Shown here: one piece after another, positions 36,808-46,914 of the stretch
How positions within the stretch are numbered: the stretch's first letter is position 1
Layout of the letters: each line of letters begins with the position of its first letter
Source: Dysgonamonadaceae bacterium
GTDB lineage: Bacteria > Bacteroidota > Bacteroidia > Bacteroidales > Azobacteroidaceae
DNA: 64,000 nucleotides
Assembly: GCA_031289145.1 (NCBI GenBank)
Contig: JAITQA010000054.1
Coordinates: 1 to 64,000, forward strand
Reading direction: 5' to 3'
The notes under the pieces: generated by a model
What the model was told of the DNA's origin: nothing
Database searches by the model: none
Seen by the model: the letters and a program-made list of their open reading frames with translations, nothing else
Made by a program: the position numbers and the translations under genes

Positions 36808-37005
36808 TTACTCCGCTTCAGCAATCTCAATATCTGGAAGCTCGATACTAATGTCAGGCCCGTTAACAGTTCCATTCTGGTAACCCGGCTGACACGCTGC
36901 CTTACAACTTTGACTACACGCGCCTCCTTCAATTGAATTGAGTTGCTCATCATCCAGTAATTGACTCTGGTCGATTTTTGGAAATTTTTCAATAAAATTT
37001 TCCAT
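36808..37005 (-). CDS. Putative RiPP precursor peptide, 65 aa, GG-type leader and Cys-rich core
   Basis: MENFIEKFPKIDQSQLLDDEQLNSIEGG|ACSQSCKAACQPGYQNGTVNGPDISIELPDIEIAEAE. LNSIEGG leader end matches C39 exporter substrates; located between the ACP and GNAT genes. Confidence 0.8.
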   Translation of the reverse strand: MENFIEKFPKIDQSQLLDDEQLNSIEGGACSQSCKAACQPGYQNGTVNGPDISIELPDIEIAEAE

Positions 37006-37039
37006 GATTTTAAATTTTAAATATTAATAATACCATAGT

Positions 37040-37285
37040 TTAAGCCCTATGGATTTGGCTTTTCTGTCCATTATTTATAAGTTCAATAAATTCTTGCATA
37101 GATAATTGTCCATTAATTTCGGACAATTTTATCTCAATAAAATATTTTTTTTCAATATAAGAAATCAATTCCAACAACTCTAACGAATCAAAACCTAAAT
37201 CACTAATTCTGGTGTTATACGAAAGAACCATCTTCTCAGACAATATTTTGTCGAGGTATTGTTGTATGTCTTCTAACGTAAACAT
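37040..37285 (-). CDS. Acyl carrier protein
   Basis: 81 aa, ...RISDLGFDSLELLELISYIEKKYFIEI: DSL phosphopantetheine site and ACP length. Confidence 0.85.
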   Translation of the reverse strand: MFTLEDIQQYLDKILSEKMVLSYNTRISDLGFDSLELLELISYIEKKYFIEIKLSEINGQLSMQEFIELINNGQKSQIHRA

Positions 37286-37288
37286 CTT

Positions 37289-38782
37289 TTAATCAGAACA
37301 AATATTGTAAATCAATTCAGGGGCTTTTGGACATCTTGGATCCGGATATAAGTAATTTTCCCAATCATATCCTTTAACTATCAATTTCCAGCAAACGCCT
37401 TTGCCTTTTCTGCAATTATTAAAGTCTTGACAAGAATGGCAAGAACTTTCTTCAGGAAAATCTTTTTGATGCAAATTCCATAAATTAGATGCTTTATCTG
37501 AATTCCATACTTCTAGTAAGTTGTTCTTTGTTAAATCTCCTATAATAAAATGTTCATCCCAATACAATTCTTCGCAGATAGTAACTTTTCCATCAGGCAG
37601 AATAATAAGACCATTGATATTTCCGGAACAGAGACTTCTTTCTTTAAATTCCGAATAATTACATAATTCGTCTTTTAGAATTCGTTGATCGTCAAAGATT
37701 ATTTCAAAACACATTTCTTTACGTTTCTGATTTATAAAATTCAAAATCTCTTCAATTTGTTTTAATGTGGGTTTGATTTTGTGATATTCCTCGTTCGATT
37801 TATACGATGAGCAACCAATTACTGTAATCATGTATCGTTTAACATTTTTCAAATGTCCTATAAAATCAATAACTTCGCCAATATTTTTTGTTGTGAGCGT
37901 ATCATTTGTTTGTGTACCTTTAATAATTAGTTTTATCCCTTTTGAATCCAAATAAGTCAAACTTTCTTTCATCTTATCGGCATAAGAATTAGCTACTTTC
38001 AAATTTTTAATCTGTAATTCAGTATCGAATGAATCTATTGAAACTTGTAACTCTTGAAATCCGGTTTGTACAAATATATCTATCATTTCTTTTGACAAAG
38101 GAACTTTTGTAGAAAGATTTGAAATAAACCCATAGTTATGCAATTTTTCAAGTATTATTTTCCAATCTTTTTGAAGAAAAATTTCTCCTCCGGTTATATC
38201 AAAATCTCTAATACCGATTTTGTGCGCTTCATCAATTATTGAAAGTATTCTTTCTGTTGATAATGGCTTATATTTTTTTTCCTTGTTGGCATAGCAGTAT
38301 ATACAATCCGTAACACAAGAGGTGTTTATTACAAATACTACAGCAGTCGGCTTTGAAAATCTAATCCGCTCAAAATCATAAGGTGGATTTTTCAGATATA
38401 GCTTGTAATCAATATCTTGTCTTGCTATATTGTTCTTGTTTTCTATCAATATATTTTTGGGAAATATGAATTTTCTGTCATCGTATTCAATACCTATATT
38501 ACTAGGATTTTCGATAAAAGCACTCACTGTTTTAAGAGTATTCTCTTCTGATAATGAGAAAAAATCACTTATTTCCATCACAACTTCTTTCGTAGATTTA
38601 TCTCCTTTAAAAAACGACAGCAGAATTGCGTGCATTGGGTGAATAAAGTTAAAAAAGTACCGCGAGTTTCTATCAGAAATCAGTACAATTCTATCTGAGT
38701 CGTCTATCAAAAAATAGTCCGGATTTAATACAAGTTTTCTTTCTAAATCTATGCTTTCCATAATTGTAAAATTTATTATCAT
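37289..38782 (-). CDS. Radical SAM/SPASM peptide maturase
   Basis: CVTDCIYCYA (CxxxCxxC); FDITGGEIFL; C-terminal SPASM cysteines LCSGNINGLIILPDGKVTIC, CHSCQDFNNC, GVC, RCP; PqqD-like N-terminal region. ATG at 38761 is an alternative start. Confidence 0.92.
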   Translation of the reverse strand: MIINFTIMESIDLERKLVLNPDYFLIDDSDRIVLISDRNSRYFFNFIHPMHAILLSFFKGDKSTKEVVMEISDFFSLSEENTLKTVSAFIENPSNIGIEYDDRKFIFPKNILIENKNNIARQDIDYKLYLKNPPYDFERIRFSKPTAVVFVINTSCVTDCIYCYANKEKKYKPLSTERILSIIDEAHKIGIRDFDITGGEIFLQKDWKIILEKLHNYGFISNLSTKVPLSKEMIDIFVQTGFQELQVSIDSFDTELQIKNLKVANSYADKMKESLTYLDSKGIKLIIKGTQTNDTLTTKNIGEVIDFIGHLKNVKRYMITVIGCSSYKSNEEYHKIKPTLKQIEEILNFINQKRKEMCFEIIFDDQRILKDELCNYSEFKERSLCSGNINGLIILPDGKVTICEELYWDEHFIIGDLTKNNLLEVWNSDKASNLWNLHQKDFPEESSCHSCQDFNNCRKGKGVCWKLIVKGYDWENYLYPDPRCPKAPELIYNICSD

Positions 38783-41148
38783 TTTGTCGAAAATCTATCT
38801 GTTTCCAAGGAACCTGTTTTTGCCTTATTTTCAATTTTCTCGCCGCCTTTGAATTTCATTACAAACGAAAGTTGAATGTATTGGCTACTGAGAAGACTAT
38901 GTTCCCGGCTATAATTATTGCCAAAATACATTTCTCTAAAGTTTCCGTTTGAATCAAAAATATCATTTACATCTAAGGATAATGACCAGTTGTCTTTTTT
39001 GGAATTGTAATAAATTCCGGCGTTCATTAGCCATTTAGTATGCTGAATATAAACTAAATTGTCATATTTTGGATAAAAGAAATATTCGGAATTAATTCCT
39101 AACTGACTTGTAATTTTATAGTTACATATTGCCTTTAATGTTCCCACCCAATAATTACTTTTCCCTCGTGACAATTCAAACCCGTTTTTTGGATTCCTAT
39201 AATTTACATGCTGTATGGTACCACCTATTTGTCCAAACAATTTATCGTCCGGCAGTAATTGATAGTTAATACTGGCGTTGGCATAAATTCTACTGAGATC
39301 AGCGATATTTTGATATTCATATTCAGTGATAAGGGGATCTATCATGCTGTTTTTTGCCACAAAACCTCTTAAATTAGTGCCTGATTCATATCCCAAATTG
39401 GTATTTATGAATTGATAGAATAGACTTCTCCAACTAAAAGTGTAATTTATCCTTGGTTTCAGTTCGGGATTGCCTTTTACGTAGCTGTATTGATTGGAAT
39501 AACGTACACCAGGTAACATGTGATTATAGTCAGGTCGTAAAATGGAGGAACCCAATGATAAGGATGTTTGATAGTTCCTGTTACTGCTGTTATAAGAGGC
39601 TGTAAAAAAGGGAAACAGATTGGTATAAGAATCCGTAACTTTTTCATTAAGCGTCAAAAAATCAAGAAAATAGTAGGTATGTTCCGAGCGCAATGATGCG
39701 CTTGCCGACCAGCTTTTGTTTACTGTATATTTAAGTTGTGCATATCCTGCATAAATATTTTCCTTACCAAAAAACAGGCTGGTAGGATAGCGATTAGAAT
39801 TTGTTGTTTCTATGTACGTTACATCATCATTTAATTGTCCTAAATCTGTTTTTATTCCCAGTAGTAAATTCATTTTCTCAGAGAATTTGTGATCGTAGTC
39901 CAACTTTATTGTGTGACGGTGCGCAATCATTTCGGCATCGGTGTGTAGTATTTCAGCGCCTTCCTCAAATGTGTTCCTGTGGTTTCTCAATCCTCCGTAT
40001 ACAATGCCATAAGATGCTTTGAATTTGTTCTTTAACGTATCTTGAGAGATATATTCTATTTGTCCTGCCCACATATCATTGTTTCCTTTTGATTTTACAT
40101 GCCAAACATCACGCATTACATTGTTATTTTGAAGAATAGATTGCTGTTCCGAATTATTTTTTGAGAAATCATCATAAAAATTAAAATTGAAATTTAAGTT
40201 ATGCCCTTTCTTTATGTCCCAATTCAGATTTAACATACCCATGTAAACATTTGTTCTGCTCTCGCTGTTTCTGTCTTGATAGAGAAAAGCATTATTCCAA
40301 TATTGCAAAGTATCATTTTCTTGTGCAGCCGAATATTCGTTTCCGTATGAAAGTGTCGAATTCAGCATAACATTCTTTTTCTTGAACATCATTGTAGCAG
40401 AAGTCCCTCCATCCAAATGGCTATTATCATAAGCAGTGGCCTTGCCTCCTACGGATAAAAAATAGCCATCCACTCTTTGTTTCTTATAAACAATATTAAT
40501 TATTGCCCCATCGGAAGCGTCATGTACGCCGCCGGAAGAATAAATTAACTCAATTTTTTCAATAGCGGCAACCGGCGTCGATTGTATGATCGTGTTTACA
40601 GTGGAAGAATTAAGCGTCTGTTTTCGCCCATCCAGATAGACTGTAGCTGCCTGACCGTTTAGCGTCAAAACACCCTCTGAATTGAAGACCCCTGGAAGCG
40701 TTTGTATCAGTCTTGAAATAGTATATGTTTGAATATTAGGAATTTCACCTATATTTACAATCAATTTTTCATTTTGAAATTCATAGATTGGTTTTTTGGC
40801 AACGATTTGTACTTCGTTCAGTAAAATTGTTTTTTTATGCAAATGTATAATAATTGTTGTGTCTCTATCCGGAACCGACGGACTATAACTGTTTTCAAAT
40901 TCAAGATGAGTGATGCGAAGAAAACAAAAAGCGGAGTCTTTTAGCTTTGTCAGTTCAAAATTTCCATAATTATTAGTGATTGTACTTGCAATCAGAACAC
41001 TGTCTTTTGCAATTAAAGAAACGGTTGCAGCAACTACTGCATTGGATTTTTCATCTAACACTTTCCCCTCAATTTTAATGTTTTGAGCGGTATTAGTAAA
41101 ATAAACACTTACGAATAATAACAGGGTAAATACATATTTCATCATCAA
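38779..41148 (-). CDS. Outer membrane beta-barrel / TonB-dependent receptor-like protein with carboxypeptidase-regulatory-like N-terminus
   Basis: IKIEGKVLDEKSNAVVAATVSLIAKDS; plug-like IQTYTISRLIQTLPGVFNSEGVLTLNGQAATVYLDGRK; overlaps the rSAM start by 4 nt. Confidence 0.88.
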   Translation of the reverse strand: MMMKYVFTLLLFVSVYFTNTAQNIKIEGKVLDEKSNAVVAATVSLIAKDSVLIASTITNNYGNFELTKLKDSAFCFLRITHLEFENSYSPSVPDRDTTIIIHLHKKTILLNEVQIVAKKPIYEFQNEKLIVNIGEIPNIQTYTISRLIQTLPGVFNSEGVLTLNGQAATVYLDGRKQTLNSSTVNTIIQSTPVAAIEKIELIYSSGGVHDASDGAIINIVYKKQRVDGYFLSVGGKATAYDNSHLDGGTSATMMFKKKNVMLNSTLSYGNEYSAAQENDTLQYWNNAFLYQDRNSESRTNVYMGMLNLNWDIKKGHNLNFNFNFYDDFSKNNSEQQSILQNNNVMRDVWHVKSKGNNDMWAGQIEYISQDTLKNKFKASYGIVYGGLRNHRNTFEEGAEILHTDAEMIAHRHTIKLDYDHKFSEKMNLLLGIKTDLGQLNDDVTYIETTNSNRYPTSLFFGKENIYAGYAQLKYTVNKSWSASASLRSEHTYYFLDFLTLNEKVTDSYTNLFPFFTASYNSSNRNYQTSLSLGSSILRPDYNHMLPGVRYSNQYSYVKGNPELKPRINYTFSWRSLFYQFINTNLGYESGTNLRGFVAKNSMIDPLITEYEYQNIADLSRIYANASINYQLLPDDKLFGQIGGTIQHVNYRNPKNGFELSRGKSNYWVGTLKAICNYKITSQLGINSEYFFYPKYDNLVYIQHTKWLMNAGIYYNSKKDNWSLSLDVNDIFDSNGNFREMYFGNNYSREHSLLSSQYIQLSFVMKFKGGEKIENKAKTGSLETDRFSTK

Positions 41149-41387: not shown

Positions 41388-41747
41388 ATGGAAAAAAATA
41401 GACTTATTGGGAGAAGAAAAGCAAATGGCTTTTCTCAAAGCATGGTTGCGGAAAAGTTGTGCATGGATGTATCAAACTATAATCGCAGAGAAAAGGGACA
41501 AGTAAAAATTTCATTGCGAGAGTGGGAAAAATTAGCAGATATTTTGCAAGTACCTATTGAAGAGATATATGAATCCGATGATACGCAGGTTTTTATATGT
41601 AGAGATAGTTCAACGGTTCATTACCAGGGGACAAACAATATCTATTCTGTTCCCGAATATTTGTTAGACACACAGCGGAAATACATAGAAATACTTGAAA
41701 ACGAGATTCGTGAACTTAGGACTGAACCGGAAAACCGGAAGTCCTGA
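41388..41747 (+). CDS. XRE-family helix-turn-helix regulator
   Basis: RRKANGFSQSMVAEKLCMDVSNYNRREKGQVKISLREWEKLADIL. Confidence 0.88.
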   Translation: MEKNRLIGRRKANGFSQSMVAEKLCMDVSNYNRREKGQVKISLREWEKLADILQVPIEEIYESDDTQVFICRDSSTVHYQGTNNIYSVPEYLLDTQRKYIEILENEIRELRTEPENRKS

Positions 41748-41790: not shown

Positions 41791-43314
41791 TTATTGTTTT
41801 CCGGCCAAGATTTTTTTCACCGCCTCCACCAGCCGGTCTATTTCCTCGGGCGTATTGTAAAACGAGAAAGAGGGCCTGACGGTTGCCTCCAGTCCGAATC
41901 TCCTCAGAGCGGGTTGGGCGCAATGGTGTCCGGCGCGTAAAGCGATACCTTCCGCATCAAGCAGTTTGCCGACTTCCGGCGTAGGTATACCCGGAATAAT
42001 AAAAGACACAACGCTTATCCGCTCGCGCGGATTACCGATGAGCCGGATACCGTCGATTTTCCCTAATTCTTTGCGGGCATACTCGGTCAGGTAATGTTCG
42101 TATTTCTCAATATTGTGGATGCCGACTTTGCTTACATAATCCAAGGCCGCTCCCAATCCGACAGCGTCCGCCACATTGGGTGTTCCTGCTTCAAACTTGG
42201 CGGGAGGTGCATTGAATACGGTTTCCTCAAAAGTAACGTCTTTTATCATATTACCGCCGCCTTGCCAAGGGGGAATCAACTCCAACAATTCCTTTTTCCC
42301 GTAAACGACGCCGATGCCGTTGGGAGCGTAGATTTTATGTCCCGAAAACACAAAGAAATCCACATCCAAATCCTGCACATCCACCGGCGTATGGGCGATG
42401 GATTGCGCTCCGTCTATCAGGACGCGGGCGCCATAGCGTTTGGCCATGTCAATCATCGTTTTAGCCGGAGAAATTGTGCCAAAAGTATTGTTCACCTGAG
42501 CGAAAGAAACAATTTTTGTCCGCGAACTCAGTAATCTTTCATATTCTTCCAGTATCACTTCCCCTTTGTCGTTGATGGGAATCACCAGCAATTTTGCATT
42601 TTTCTCCTTGGCCAATTGTTGCCAGGGAACGATATTTGCATGGTGGTCCAAGGTAGAAACGATGATTTCGTCGCCCGGTTGAATGAATTTCCAACCGTAG
42701 GTTTGTGTAACCAGGTTGATGCCTTCAGTCGTTCCCCGCACAAAAATGATGTCTTCCGCAGAAGGCGCGTTAATGAATTTCGCGACTTTTTCCCTTGCAC
42801 CTTCATAACCATCTGTGGAACGTGCCGCCAAGGTATGCGAAGCCCGGTGGATATTGGAATTGTCATTTTCGTAATAATGCTTGACAGCTTCGATTACCTG
42901 CGAGGGTTTTTGCGTAGTGGCGGCGTTATCAAACCAAACCAAATCTTTTCCGTTTACTTTTTGATGCAGTATCGGAAAGTCCTTGCGAATAGCTTGTACA
43001 TCGAAAGTTTCCCTGCCGTTATAAGTAATGGGCTGGTCCCTCAGAAAAGAATAGGGAGAGTAAGCCGTATCAGCGAATTCGTTGTTTGCAGCCGAACGCA
43101 AACGAGTGGTTTCAGCCGGGGCAGGAACGTCATCGCTGAAATAAATTCCGGATAATCCTTCCGTTCCGGGAAAAACAGCGCTGATATCGGAATAAGAAGG
43201 CGAAGCTATCAATTGCTGGAATGAAGCATAAACGCCACTCAAGTCAAGACCGTTGTCCGGTAAATGTTGCGAAACTGTTTGTAAGTTTTTTTCCATAATG
43301 TTTATTTTTAACAA
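41791..43314 (-). CDS. SufS-type cysteine desulfurase with ~100-aa N-terminal extension (putative encapsulin cargo)
   Basis: FDNAATTQKPSQV, DGAQSIAHTPVDVQDLDVDFFVFSGHKIYAP, ALRAGHHCAQP; low-complexity extension before FDVQAIRKDFPIL. ATG at 43296 is an alternative start. Confidence 0.93.
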   Translation of the reverse strand: MLKINIMEKNLQTVSQHLPDNGLDLSGVYASFQQLIASPSYSDISAVFPGTEGLSGIYFSDDVPAPAETTRLRSAANNEFADTAYSPYSFLRDQPITYNGRETFDVQAIRKDFPILHQKVNGKDLVWFDNAATTQKPSQVIEAVKHYYENDNSNIHRASHTLAARSTDGYEGAREKVAKFINAPSAEDIIFVRGTTEGINLVTQTYGWKFIQPGDEIIVSTLDHHANIVPWQQLAKEKNAKLLVIPINDKGEVILEEYERLLSSRTKIVSFAQVNNTFGTISPAKTMIDMAKRYGARVLIDGAQSIAHTPVDVQDLDVDFFVFSGHKIYAPNGIGVVYGKKELLELIPPWQGGGNMIKDVTFEETVFNAPPAKFEAGTPNVADAVGLGAALDYVSKVGIHNIEKYEHYLTEYARKELGKIDGIRLIGNPRERISVVSFIIPGIPTPEVGKLLDAEGIALRAGHHCAQPALRRFGLEATVRPSFSFYNTPEEIDRLVEAVKKILAGKQ

Positions 43315-43316
43315 TA

Positions 43317-43403
43317 GAACGCGGATGACACGGATTAAGCGAATTGGCGCAGATTTTAAATATTAATCCGTTTGAATCCACCTAATCTGCGTCATCCGCG
43401 TTC
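43317..43403. repeat. 21-bp imperfect inverted repeat between sufS and the encapsulin gene
   Basis: gaacgcggatgacacggatta (43317-43337) pairs with taatctgcgtcatccgcgttc (43383-43403), 2 mismatches. Confidence 0.75.
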
Positions 43404-43413
43404 CATCTATTCC

Positions 43414-44853
43414 TCATTTCACTACCGTTTTCCGGCTGTTATAATCATGATAATAACCGACTTCCACATTTTCAAGCACAGCGATAGCATCGTCTGTTAA
43501 AGAAGCCAAGGAGAAATACTTAGTCAGCAAATAGCTGGCAACGGCAAATTTATCCAATCCCATCAGCCGCGCCGACAGACTGGGCGCTATTTCACCCGGA
43601 ATACCGGCTTGATGAAGGCCTACCACGCCTTGCTCCTGTTCACCGGTGCGCACCAGAATAAAATTGGTGATTCCTACGCCGCGATTGGTCAGGTACTGTC
43701 CTTGAATTTCCACTTTGTCACTCGGGATAATAGGAACACCGCGCCAGGTAATGACCGGTACGCCGAAGACCACCGTTGTTACCGGAGGAACGCCCCGCCA
43801 GGTACATTCTCTTTCAAATGCCGCAATGGCACGCGGATGCGCCAGAAAGAACGACGGCTTTTTCCAAACCAAAGATAGCAGCTCATCCAAATCATCGGGT
43901 GTAGGGGAGCCGTAGCGGGTACTGATGCGGTATCCCGGTTCCACGCTTGCCAGCAAACCGAAAGTTTTATTGTTAATCAATTCCCATTCCTGCCGCTCCT
44001 TGATGCTTTCGATACTCAAACGCATCTGTTGTTCGAGCTGATTATATGGGTTGTTGTATAAATCGGTTACGCGGGTATGCACACGGACTACCGTTTGAAG
44101 CGTATTCAACGGATATTCACGGGGTTCCTCTTCGTAGTCGATATAAGTTTCGGGAATGATGTTGTCTTCTTCGTGTCCGGAAGCCAGGTCAATGTGTTTT
44201 TCGCCATGTGTATTTACGGTAGCTTTCAGGCGAAGATGTTCATCGACTGCTTTCTGGAATTGTTCGCGGAAAGTGGGGATATCTTTGATTATCTCTTCCA
44301 ATTCATTGCTGTTCAGAGAGAAAAAGATTGCCGGTGTAATCGCCTTCACAGTTACGGACGAAAGTTTATCGGACAGCAGATTGGCTTCACCGAAATATTC
44401 TCCTTCGGAAAGAATCGCGATGCGTAAGTCTTCGCCGTGCGTACCTTTGCTGGAGATTTCCACTTGTCCCTGCGCTACAATGAAAAACTTCTGAGGGTCT
44501 TTGTCTTCACGGATGAGATTGTCTCCCAAATCAGTTATTTCGGTTTGGAATTTCTTGGCCAAACGGTTGACAATCTCCTGTTCGATATGGGCAAACAGTG
44601 GAATCCGTCGGAACGCCTCCACCCGGAAAGAAGGAACGCCGTCGAAAAATTCTATCTCGATACGTTCCGCTTTTTTCAGTTCAACTTTGGTGCGATTTAC
44701 GCGGTAAGTTCCCGAATCGACTTGCACCCAAGGGAGCAATTTCAACAATAACCTCGGCGTGATAGAACCCATCTGCGGGGCTGTCTTTGTGGTAGTTGCT
44801 AATTTCTTAGCGGTTGCAGTCGCAATGCTGCGTTGTAATTCATTCTGTTCCAT
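43414..44853 (-). CDS. Family 2B-type encapsulin shell protein with inserted cyclic-nucleotide-binding-like domain
   Basis: N-terminal TPRLLLKLLPWVQVDSGTYRVNR, cNBD-like RIPLFAHIEQE...FFIVAQGQVEIS...EGEYFGEANLLS, then the SrpI-like shell part (ERQEWELINNKTFGLLASVEPGYRISTRYGSPTPDDLDELLSLVWKKPSFFLAHPRAIAAFERECTWRGVPP). Confidence 0.88.
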   Translation of the reverse strand: MEQNELQRSIATATAKKLATTTKTAPQMGSITPRLLLKLLPWVQVDSGTYRVNRTKVELKKAERIEIEFFDGVPSFRVEAFRRIPLFAHIEQEIVNRLAKKFQTEITDLGDNLIREDKDPQKFFIVAQGQVEISSKGTHGEDLRIAILSEGEYFGEANLLSDKLSSVTVKAITPAIFFSLNSNELEEIIKDIPTFREQFQKAVDEHLRLKATVNTHGEKHIDLASGHEEDNIIPETYIDYEEEPREYPLNTLQTVVRVHTRVTDLYNNPYNQLEQQMRLSIESIKERQEWELINNKTFGLLASVEPGYRISTRYGSPTPDDLDELLSLVWKKPSFFLAHPRAIAAFERECTWRGVPPVTTVVFGVPVITWRGVPIIPSDKVEIQGQYLTNRGVGITNFILVRTGEQEQGVVGLHQAGIPGEIAPSLSARLMGLDKFAVASYLLTKYFSLASLTDDAIAVLENVEVGYYHDYNSRKTVVK

Positions 44854-45256
44854 AATTGTTTTTTATTTCTATTTCAATTTGTTCTACTCGTTTATTTATA
44901 ATCGAAAACGCCTTGATGACCGGATTCTCTTTCTCCTGCAAAGACAGGATTATATAGACAATCTCCGGGTCGAAAGCCAGCCGAATATCCTCTTCCGAAG
45001 GACGGGCGGGCGATTCGGGATGACTGTGGTAATTGGCAATAATCTGCAATCCTTGCGAACGAGCCTCCCGCAATACACCGAATTGTTCTTTCGGGTCGAA
45101 AGAAAAATGTTCGGGACTGTGGTCGATGTTGGTCAAAGGATATTGCTTCATCACCTCATTCTCTTTCCCGACTAAAAGACCGCAGGCTTCATCCGGAAAC
45201 TCTTTCCGGGCTTGTGCAATGATGCCGTCGATAATGCTTTGTGGGATAAGAATCAT
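44840..45256 (-). CDS. M67/JAMM (Mov34/MPN) family metallopeptidase
   Basis: FPDEACGLLVG and NYHSHPESPARPSEEDIRLA (JAMM HxH...D). Confidence 0.92.
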   Translation of the reverse strand: MILIPQSIIDGIIAQARKEFPDEACGLLVGKENEVMKQYPLTNIDHSPEHFSFDPKEQFGVLREARSQGLQIIANYHSHPESPARPSEEDIRLAFDPEIVYIILSLQEKENPVIKAFSIINKRVEQIEIEIKNNYGTE

Positions 45257-45600: not shown

Positions 45601-46092
45601 TTAAATAAATAAAGTTTGACCGCCTTCCGACAATTGCAGGAAAGTAGCTACGCCCAAAACATCTTTTATTTCCGGAATAAAATCGCTTTTTTGCAATCCC
45701 AGGATGTGCATCGCCATTTCGCAGGCATAGAAATTGATTCCTAATTGTTTCGCAGCATCTACCAATTCTTCCAAAACCGCCACATTATTTTTCCGCATCA
45801 GGTAACGGAAAATTTTAGGACTGATTCCCGCAAAATTAAGTCGGCTTACGGGCGCTGATTTCAATCCGCCCATAAAGATACCGAACACTTTAGGTAAAAA
45901 ACCTTTCCCGACCGGAGAACGCCCTTGTTTGATTTTGATGGCGTCTAATCCCCAGAACGTGAAAAATAGATTTACTTCGTAACCGGTAGCAGCCGCTCCC
46001 GTAGCCAATGTGAAGACGGCCGTCAACTTATCGAAATCGCCGCTGAAGGCGATGATGGATAACTTTTTTGTTATTTGTTTTTCCTCTGCCAT
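45601..46092 (-). CDS. DsrE/DsrF/DrsH-like family protein
   Basis: KKLSIIAFSGDFDKLTAVFTLATGAAATGYEVNLFFTFWG; FYACEMAMHILGL. Confidence 0.9.
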   Translation of the reverse strand: MAEEKQITKKLSIIAFSGDFDKLTAVFTLATGAAATGYEVNLFFTFWGLDAIKIKQGRSPVGKGFLPKVFGIFMGGLKSAPVSRLNFAGISPKIFRYLMRKNNVAVLEELVDAAKQLGINFYACEMAMHILGLQKSDFIPEIKDVLGVATFLQLSEGGQTLFI

Positions 46093-46098
46093 TTTTAT

Positions 46099-46914
46099 TT
46101 AGTGTTTTTTGCGGTTTGATATATCACAAACCGCTTGTTCATAATCTATTAATTGTGTTACCGTAGGATGAGAACCACAGACCGGACATTTAGCCGAGGG
46201 TCGTGTTCCGACGGTTCTGAAATCCATGGTTTTTGCATTGAACGACAGCAATCTGTTGGTCAATAATTCACCAACCCCGGTCAGATATTTCAGCGTTTCC
46301 GCTGCTTGGATTGTTCCCAGCATGCCCGCAACTGCTCCCAGAACTCCTGCTTGCGAACAAGTCGGAACGGCGTTGGGTGGGGGAGGGGAGTGAAACAGGC
46401 AACGATAGCAGGCTGTTCCCGGAACGTATGTCATGGTTTGCCCGTCGAACCGGAGTATGCCGCCATGGGAAAAGGGTTTGCCGGCAATAACGCAGGCGTC
46501 GTTAATAAGAAATTTCACCGGGAAATTATCAGTTCCGTCCACTATAAAATCGTAATCTTCGATAATAGCCAAAGCATTTTCCGAAGTAAGGAGTTCTTGA
46601 TAGGTAATGACGTTTACATCCGGATTCAGACGGTTGATTTTTTCTTTGGCGGAAATGACTTTTGGCTTATTCACATCTTCCGTGAAATGAATAATCTGCC
46701 GTTGCAGGTTACTCAAATCCACCACATCACCGTCGATGATGCCGATGGTACCGACTCCTGCGGCCGCCAAGTAGAAAGCGACCGGAGCGCCTAATCCGCC
46801 TGCTCCGACAACCAACACTTTTCCGTTGCTTATTTTTTCCTGACCCTCTACCCCAACGTCCTGAAGCAGGATATGTCGGCTGTAGCGGATGATTTGGTCT
46901 TCACTAAAATCCAT
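46099..46914 (-). CDS. HesA/MoeB/ThiF family adenylyltransferase
   Basis: RYSRHILLQDVGVEGQEKISNGKVLVVGAGGLGAPVAFYLAAAGVGTIGIIDGDVVDLSNLQRQIIH; CxxC..CPVCG zinc motifs. Confidence 0.95.
   Translation of the reverse strand: MDFSEDQIIRYSRHILLQDVGVEGQEKISNGKVLVVGAGGLGAPVAFYLAAAGVGTIGIIDGDVVDLSNLQRQIIHFTEDVNKPKVISAKEKINRLNPDVNVITYQELLTSENALAIIEDYDFIVDGTDNFPVKFLINDACVIAGKPFSHGGILRFDGQTMTYVPGTACYRCLFHSPPPPNAVPTCSQAGVLGAVAGMLGTIQAAETLKYLTGVGELLTNRLLSFNAKTMDFRTVGTRPSAKCPVCGSHPTVTQLIDYEQAVCDISNRKKH

Follow-up and report, generated by a model that had tools for sequence, protein, structure and literature searches.

What peptide does this locus make, and what would the genes around its smallest open reading frame (ORF) do to it? 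We analysed a window of 64,000 nucleotides from a Dysgonamonadaceae bacterium (source assembly, 3.9 Mb). The translation of the ORF was exactly MENFIEKFPKIDQSQLLDDEQLNSIEGG followed by ACSQSCKAACQPGYQNGTVNGPDISIELPDIEIAEAE, which confirmed the 65-aa precursor with a GG leader proposed in the initial annotation (Table 1). Homologues were found at the equivalent place in other genomes, and the ORF is therefore real, far beyond chance. Further, the cysteines that had been read at positions 2, 6 and 10 of the core were present and are conserved among the homologues, against the free variation that the annotation had named as grounds for refutation. On models of GG-leader peptides the precursor scored low: 21.7 bits on Pfam Bacteriocin_IIc (E = 2e-4), where the cut-off is 27.1, and 13.3 bits on NCBIfam TIGR04149, below the curated cut-off of 25. 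It was absent from the NCBIfam matches to the CXXX-repeat models TIGR04117 and TIGR04118. A plasmid search with the precursor gave no meaningful match.

The precursor lies in a tight minus-strand operon in the order outer-membrane (OMP) barrel, RRE/rSAM/SPASM enzyme, ACP, precursor, tandem GNAT and C39 exporter. The ACP, the tandem GNAT and a 5' element had been overlooked in the initial annotation. As that annotation had anticipated for a GG leader, the gene of a C39 exporter (with a DCGPTC motif) was located in the operon together with the predicted GG cleavage site of the precursor. A short precursor with a conserved leader beside a radical SAM/SPASM enzyme is the arrangement of an rSAM-modified RiPP, and a tandem GNAT acyltransferase in the cluster is that of a selidamide. 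No class III lanthipeptide synthetase, as expected of a lipolanthine cluster, was found among the operon proteins with Pfam and NCBIfam, and neither an acyl-ligase gene nor a peptidase gene besides the C39 exporter was identified in the operon. We give about even weight to the reading that the operon makes a RiPP that is crosslinked by the rSAM enzyme, acylated by ACP and GNAT and exported by the C39 transporter.

Table 1. Features of the operon, from upstream to downstream on the minus strand
Feature	Position	Strand	Remarks
Outer-membrane beta-barrel (OMP_b-brl_3), CarboxypepD_reg-like domain	38779..41148	(-)	Pfam 4.1e-51
Radical SAM/SPASM peptide maturase	37289..38782	(-)	Pfam Radical_SAM 1.4e-17, SPASM 3e-11; model pLDDT 88; full-length SuiB match
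Predicted RRE, ~residues 16-90 of the rSAM protein	38513..38737	(-)	Predicted fold, three strands then helices
Acyl carrier protein (ACP), DSL phosphopantetheine site (Ser34)	37040..37285	(-)	Pfam PP-binding 1.5e-6, above cut-off
5' element, 29 nt, AAGCCAAATCCATAGGGCTTAAACTATGG	37033..37061	(-)	Directly upstream of precursor; may be an H-type pseudoknot or a palindromic operator
Precursor peptide ORF, 65 aa	36808..37005	(-)	GG leader and Cys core
Leader, residues 1-28, ends SIEGG	36922..37005	(-)	Kept in six homologues
Core Cys block C30-x3-C34-K35-x2-C38	36892..36918	(-)	Invariant in 5/6 copies
Variable tail after NG, residues 46-65	36811..36870	(-)	Fast-evolving, charge unconserved
Tandem GNAT acyltransferase, 306 aa	35843..36763	(-)	Profile and fold matches
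C39-peptidase ABC exporter, 729 aa	33646..35835	(-)	Pfam Peptidase_C39 1.6e-31, ABC_membrane, ABC_tran

Four further genomes of the family, designated G015 (with two precursors), G045, G001 and G039, have matching loci, and G017 has a fragment of such a locus. The homologues of G015, G045 and G001 occupy the equivalent operon place, and that of G039 lies at a contig end: its precursor and OMP gene end one contig, and rSAM, ACP, GNAT and ABC genes begin another. Both contigs have, by eye, similar terminal sequence, which suggests an inserted element between them. The second precursor copy of G015 (L009, 6221-6394, minus strand) is more diverged: its leader is altered, its tail is basic, and it may be decaying. 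Near the homologous operon of G045 there is another small GG-leader ORF, KIKGGLHYEYINGEWILVPD, which is free of Cys (L010, 12871-13017, plus strand).

Between homologues, pN over the region that begins at the start codon and ends with NG was 0.04-0.32 against pS of at least 0.43, mostly saturated, and thus the leader through NG is under purifying selection. Five of the six copies share A-C-x3-C-K-x2-C...N-x-N-G, with Cys2, Cys6, Cys10 and Lys7 of the core and the N-G; the block of G001 has one extra Cys inside and one residue fewer after it. The most divergent copy, that of G039, has C-x2-C-x3-C, a Lys two residues past the third Cys, and NxNA. Only the window and G039 have the single core Lys noted previously; the other copies carry three to five. 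After NG, dN was about 0.75-1.9, indicating near-free evolution. The acidic alternating tail is present in the window as described, but the tail charges of the six homologues are -6, -2, +2, -6, -2 and -8, strongly acidic in three. On this dN and the change of sign we rejected a conserved acidic module, and the earlier suggestion of a metal-binding or second functional module is not supported; the tail may be a spacer or follower.

In the predicted structure of the rSAM enzyme (pLDDT 88), the N-terminal domain is RRE-like. The model aligned over its full length with SuiB, the streptide enzyme and its closest fold (about 16% identity), followed by PqqE, SkfB and CteB. The nearest named relative of the enzyme, at 74% identity, comes from a MAG labelled Dysgonamonadaceae. 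When a profile built from five rSAMs was searched, relatives were detected in many Bacteroidales genomes; in a phylum-wide sample, with at most three candidates scored per genome, they were detected in genomes of the same order only. Of 19 other loci in the family, 15 have a GG-leader, Cys-containing small ORF close by, frequently accompanied by a C39 exporter, an HlyD and an OMP barrel; several of the remaining four are short contigs. Among the cores are CXXX repeats, for example CLLGCKPGCKPGCEPGC and CLFGCQAGCKESCNVGCLSSC. The targets of TIGR04117, TIGR04118 and TIGR04149 likewise combine Cys at every fourth residue with a GG leader in Bacteroidota, but the window precursor and the tested relatives fell below every cut-off (relatives' precursors, 14-16 bits against TIGR04117/TIGR04118 cut-offs of 35-50). 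None of the tested family precursors or rSAMs reached a specific NCBIfam cut-off, the rSAMs reaching only the generic SPASM domain model. As judged from these searches, NCBIfam has no curated name for the Bacteroidales family to which the enzyme belongs.

Other members of the family differ in their precursors. Three tandem GG-leader CXXX-repeat precursors follow a related rSAM gene (L049, 1654-2277, plus strand; L051, 6458-7112, plus strand), and those of L049 are followed by an FGE-sulfatase-like gene. Beside another related rSAM, a 101-aa GG-leader precursor has nine Cys, mostly six residues apart (L054, 1594-1899, plus strand).

Because family members adjoin GG-leader precursors that are Cys-rich or carry CXXX repeats, the Cys block is supported as the target of the rSAM enzyme. 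The initial annotation had proposed crosslinking of these cysteines by an rSAM/SPASM enzyme; the enzyme, its predicted RRE and a conserved Cys block of a kind also found in other precursors of the family bear this out as far as the partners are concerned, and Cys-dependent crosslinking, probably through thioethers, is our leading guess for the chemistry. Sactipeptide and ranthipeptide systems (RumC, SkfB, CteB; PMC8172795) likewise pair an RRE-rSAM-SPASM/twitch enzyme with a Cys-rich core, and the CxxxC spacing of the window core is seen in one RumC hairpin (PMC8172795). In contrast to these, the window operon adds an ACP and a GNAT and reaches no NCBIfam equivalog, and its linkage is predicted. 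It is somewhat unlikely that the enzyme instead forms a C-C bond or epimerises residues while the conserved Cys bind metal or form disulfides. The top structural match, SuiB, makes a Lys-Trp C-C crosslink and the epimerase EpeE is also among the matches, but Cys-rich cores accompany the rSAM family and SkfB and CteB match too. A Lys-Trp bond as in streptide is excluded, since the core has no Trp.

ACP and GNAT were confined to one rSAM clade (support, 100/99) in profile searches of all ORFs of the fetched loci. An adjacent ACP is present at four of the five GNAT loci, the divergent G039 among them, and is absent at GNAT-free loci; G001 has GNAT without an adjacent ACP. We treated the clade as one evolutionary event; since loci within a single clade are not independent observations, we set aside the Fisher test of ACP with GNAT (p about 0.001). 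In samples of the order and phylum, a GNAT profile detected only the window's own genome when at most six candidates were scored per genome, a search that distant GNATs could escape. In each half of the GNAT, strands run into a loop with the motif R-x3-[IL]-G. The model is of moderate confidence (pLDDT 68, pTM 0.49). Solved tandem GNATs aligned with it from end to end, at low TM-scores that leave the half-to-half arrangement unsure.

The adjacent ACP and tandem GNAT point to acylation of the peptide. Acyl-ACP-dependent enzymes of GNAT-like fold exist elsewhere (FeeM, LuxI and HlyC), and the position of the ACP gene between rSAM and precursor suggests acyl-ACP as the donor. In selidamides, Lys side chains are fatty-acylated by tandem GNATs (PMC13060382, PMC9505594); in nostolysamides, the tandem GNAT acylates the side chain of Lys1 of a lanthipeptide (PMC13060382). 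The selidamides (for example nostolysamides with the tandem GNAT NpuN; PMC13060382, PMC9505594) are likewise RiPP clusters with a tandem GNAT, and Lys/Orn side-chain fatty acylation is predicted here. However, those described in these papers are lanthipeptides or proteusins made with lanthionine synthetases and assayed with acyl-CoA, whereas the window encodes an rSAM/SPASM enzyme, a GG leader and a dedicated ACP. The case for Lys35 as the acylated residue is weaker, because the C-K motif also occurs in GNAT-free relatives and the Lys has moved in G039; Lys conservation was accordingly dropped as proof of the site.

It is improbable that the GNAT merely acetylates a crosslinked RiPP from acetyl-CoA, for tailoring or self-protection, and that the ACP does something else. 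Self-resistance is one function that GNATs can have in natural-product pathways (PMC13060382), and G001 retains its GNAT without an adjacent ACP. The pairing of ACP with GNAT at the other loci, and the lack of ACP where there is no GNAT, argue against it. We likewise consider it unlikely that the acyl chain is placed, in the manner of lipolanthines, on the N-terminus exposed when the leader is removed, or on another nucleophile (Ser, Thr or Cys), and not on Lys35. N-terminal lipidation by GNATs is known for microvionin, goadvionins and lipoavitides, as cited in PMC13060382, and G039 is without K35. Against this reading, the C39 exporter is the one peptidase identified in the operon, and C39 exporters remove the leader during export, later than the action of cytoplasmic enzymes. 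Lipolanthines and goadvionins are GNAT-lipidated RiPPs that bear the N-terminal lipid on class III lanthipeptides; no lanthionine synthetase was found in the window operon. Very improbable is a metallophore imported through the barrel protein: the conserved Cys, the operonic TonB-receptor-like barrel and the strongly acidic tails would suit it, but the tail is unconserved, similar barrels adjoin many rSAM relatives with different cores, and the plug-domain match of the barrel is below the Pfam cut-off.

We therefore return to the crosslinked and acylated peptide, for which we infer the following steps from gene content, conservation, clade distribution and predicted folds. The GG leader would be bound by the RRE, and the rSAM/SPASM enzyme that carries this domain would install the crosslinks in the C-x3-C-K-x2-C...NxNG block. 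The dedicated ACP would receive an acyl chain from the host fatty-acid machinery, and the tandem GNAT would move it to a core amine, most likely that of K35. The C39 exporter would then cut after GG and carry the product over the inner membrane, and the outer-membrane barrel may handle it further. HlyD was not seen beside the exporter in the ACP/GNAT clade, unlike in many rSAM relatives, and we speculate that the product may therefore stay in the periplasm or membrane.

The 5' element recurs before both precursors of G015 and those of G045 and G001, with 79% mean column identity, despite saturated coding dS for most pairs. When 48 genomes of the family were searched with at most two mismatches, exactly five copies were found, each before one of these precursors, and the reversed control gave zero copies in the same genomes. 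In G015 one copy follows the ACP gene and the other the OMP gene, which indicates that the element travels with the precursor. Possible H-type pseudoknot stems are AAGCC/GGCTT and CCATAG/CTATGG, with one compensatory change in G001 and one mismatch in one of the two G015 copies; with this single change, covariation was not above that of shuffles. An RNA structure is suggested, with a palindromic DNA operator as a reasonable alternative. Rfam gave no credible family match for the element. An HTH_3 regulator gene (41388-41747, plus strand) is divergent from the OMP gene of the operon and is a candidate regulator.

Upstream of the operon, the minus-strand genes at 41791-45256 look like a family 2 encapsulin locus. 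They encode an aminotransferase class V protein resembling SufS-type cysteine desulfurases, with a long N-terminus (41791-43314), a type 2A encapsulin shell-like (SrpI-like) protein with a cNMP-binding domain (43414-44853) and a Prok-JAB protein (44840-45256). DsrE-like (45601-46092) and ThiF-like (46099-46914) proteins, encoded beside them on the same strand, suggest sulfur transfer.

Among the papers searched we found nothing on RiPPs with rSAM, ACP and GNAT, and no description of rSAM crosslinking paired with acylation on one ribosomal peptide. The GNAT-lipidated RiPPs in the cited literature come from lanthipeptide and proteusin pathways (PMC13060382, PMC9505594). The present analysis delimits a Bacteroidales-wide family of rSAM maturases, and precursor, rSAM, ACP and GNAT form a compact set that can be tested in E. 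coli. A fuller reading, plausible though we place it short of even, is a lipopeptide branch of rSAM RiPPs, in which a Bacteroidales clade crosslinks its C-x3-C-K-x2-C core and uses the tandem GNAT to N-acylate that core from a dedicated acyl-ACP, while a conserved pseudoknot-like 5' element of its own controls the precursor. If this is true, Bacteroidota would have a RiPP GNAT fed by acyl-ACP, and the known routes of ribosomal peptide lipidation would come to include an rSAM pathway equipped with its own carrier protein.
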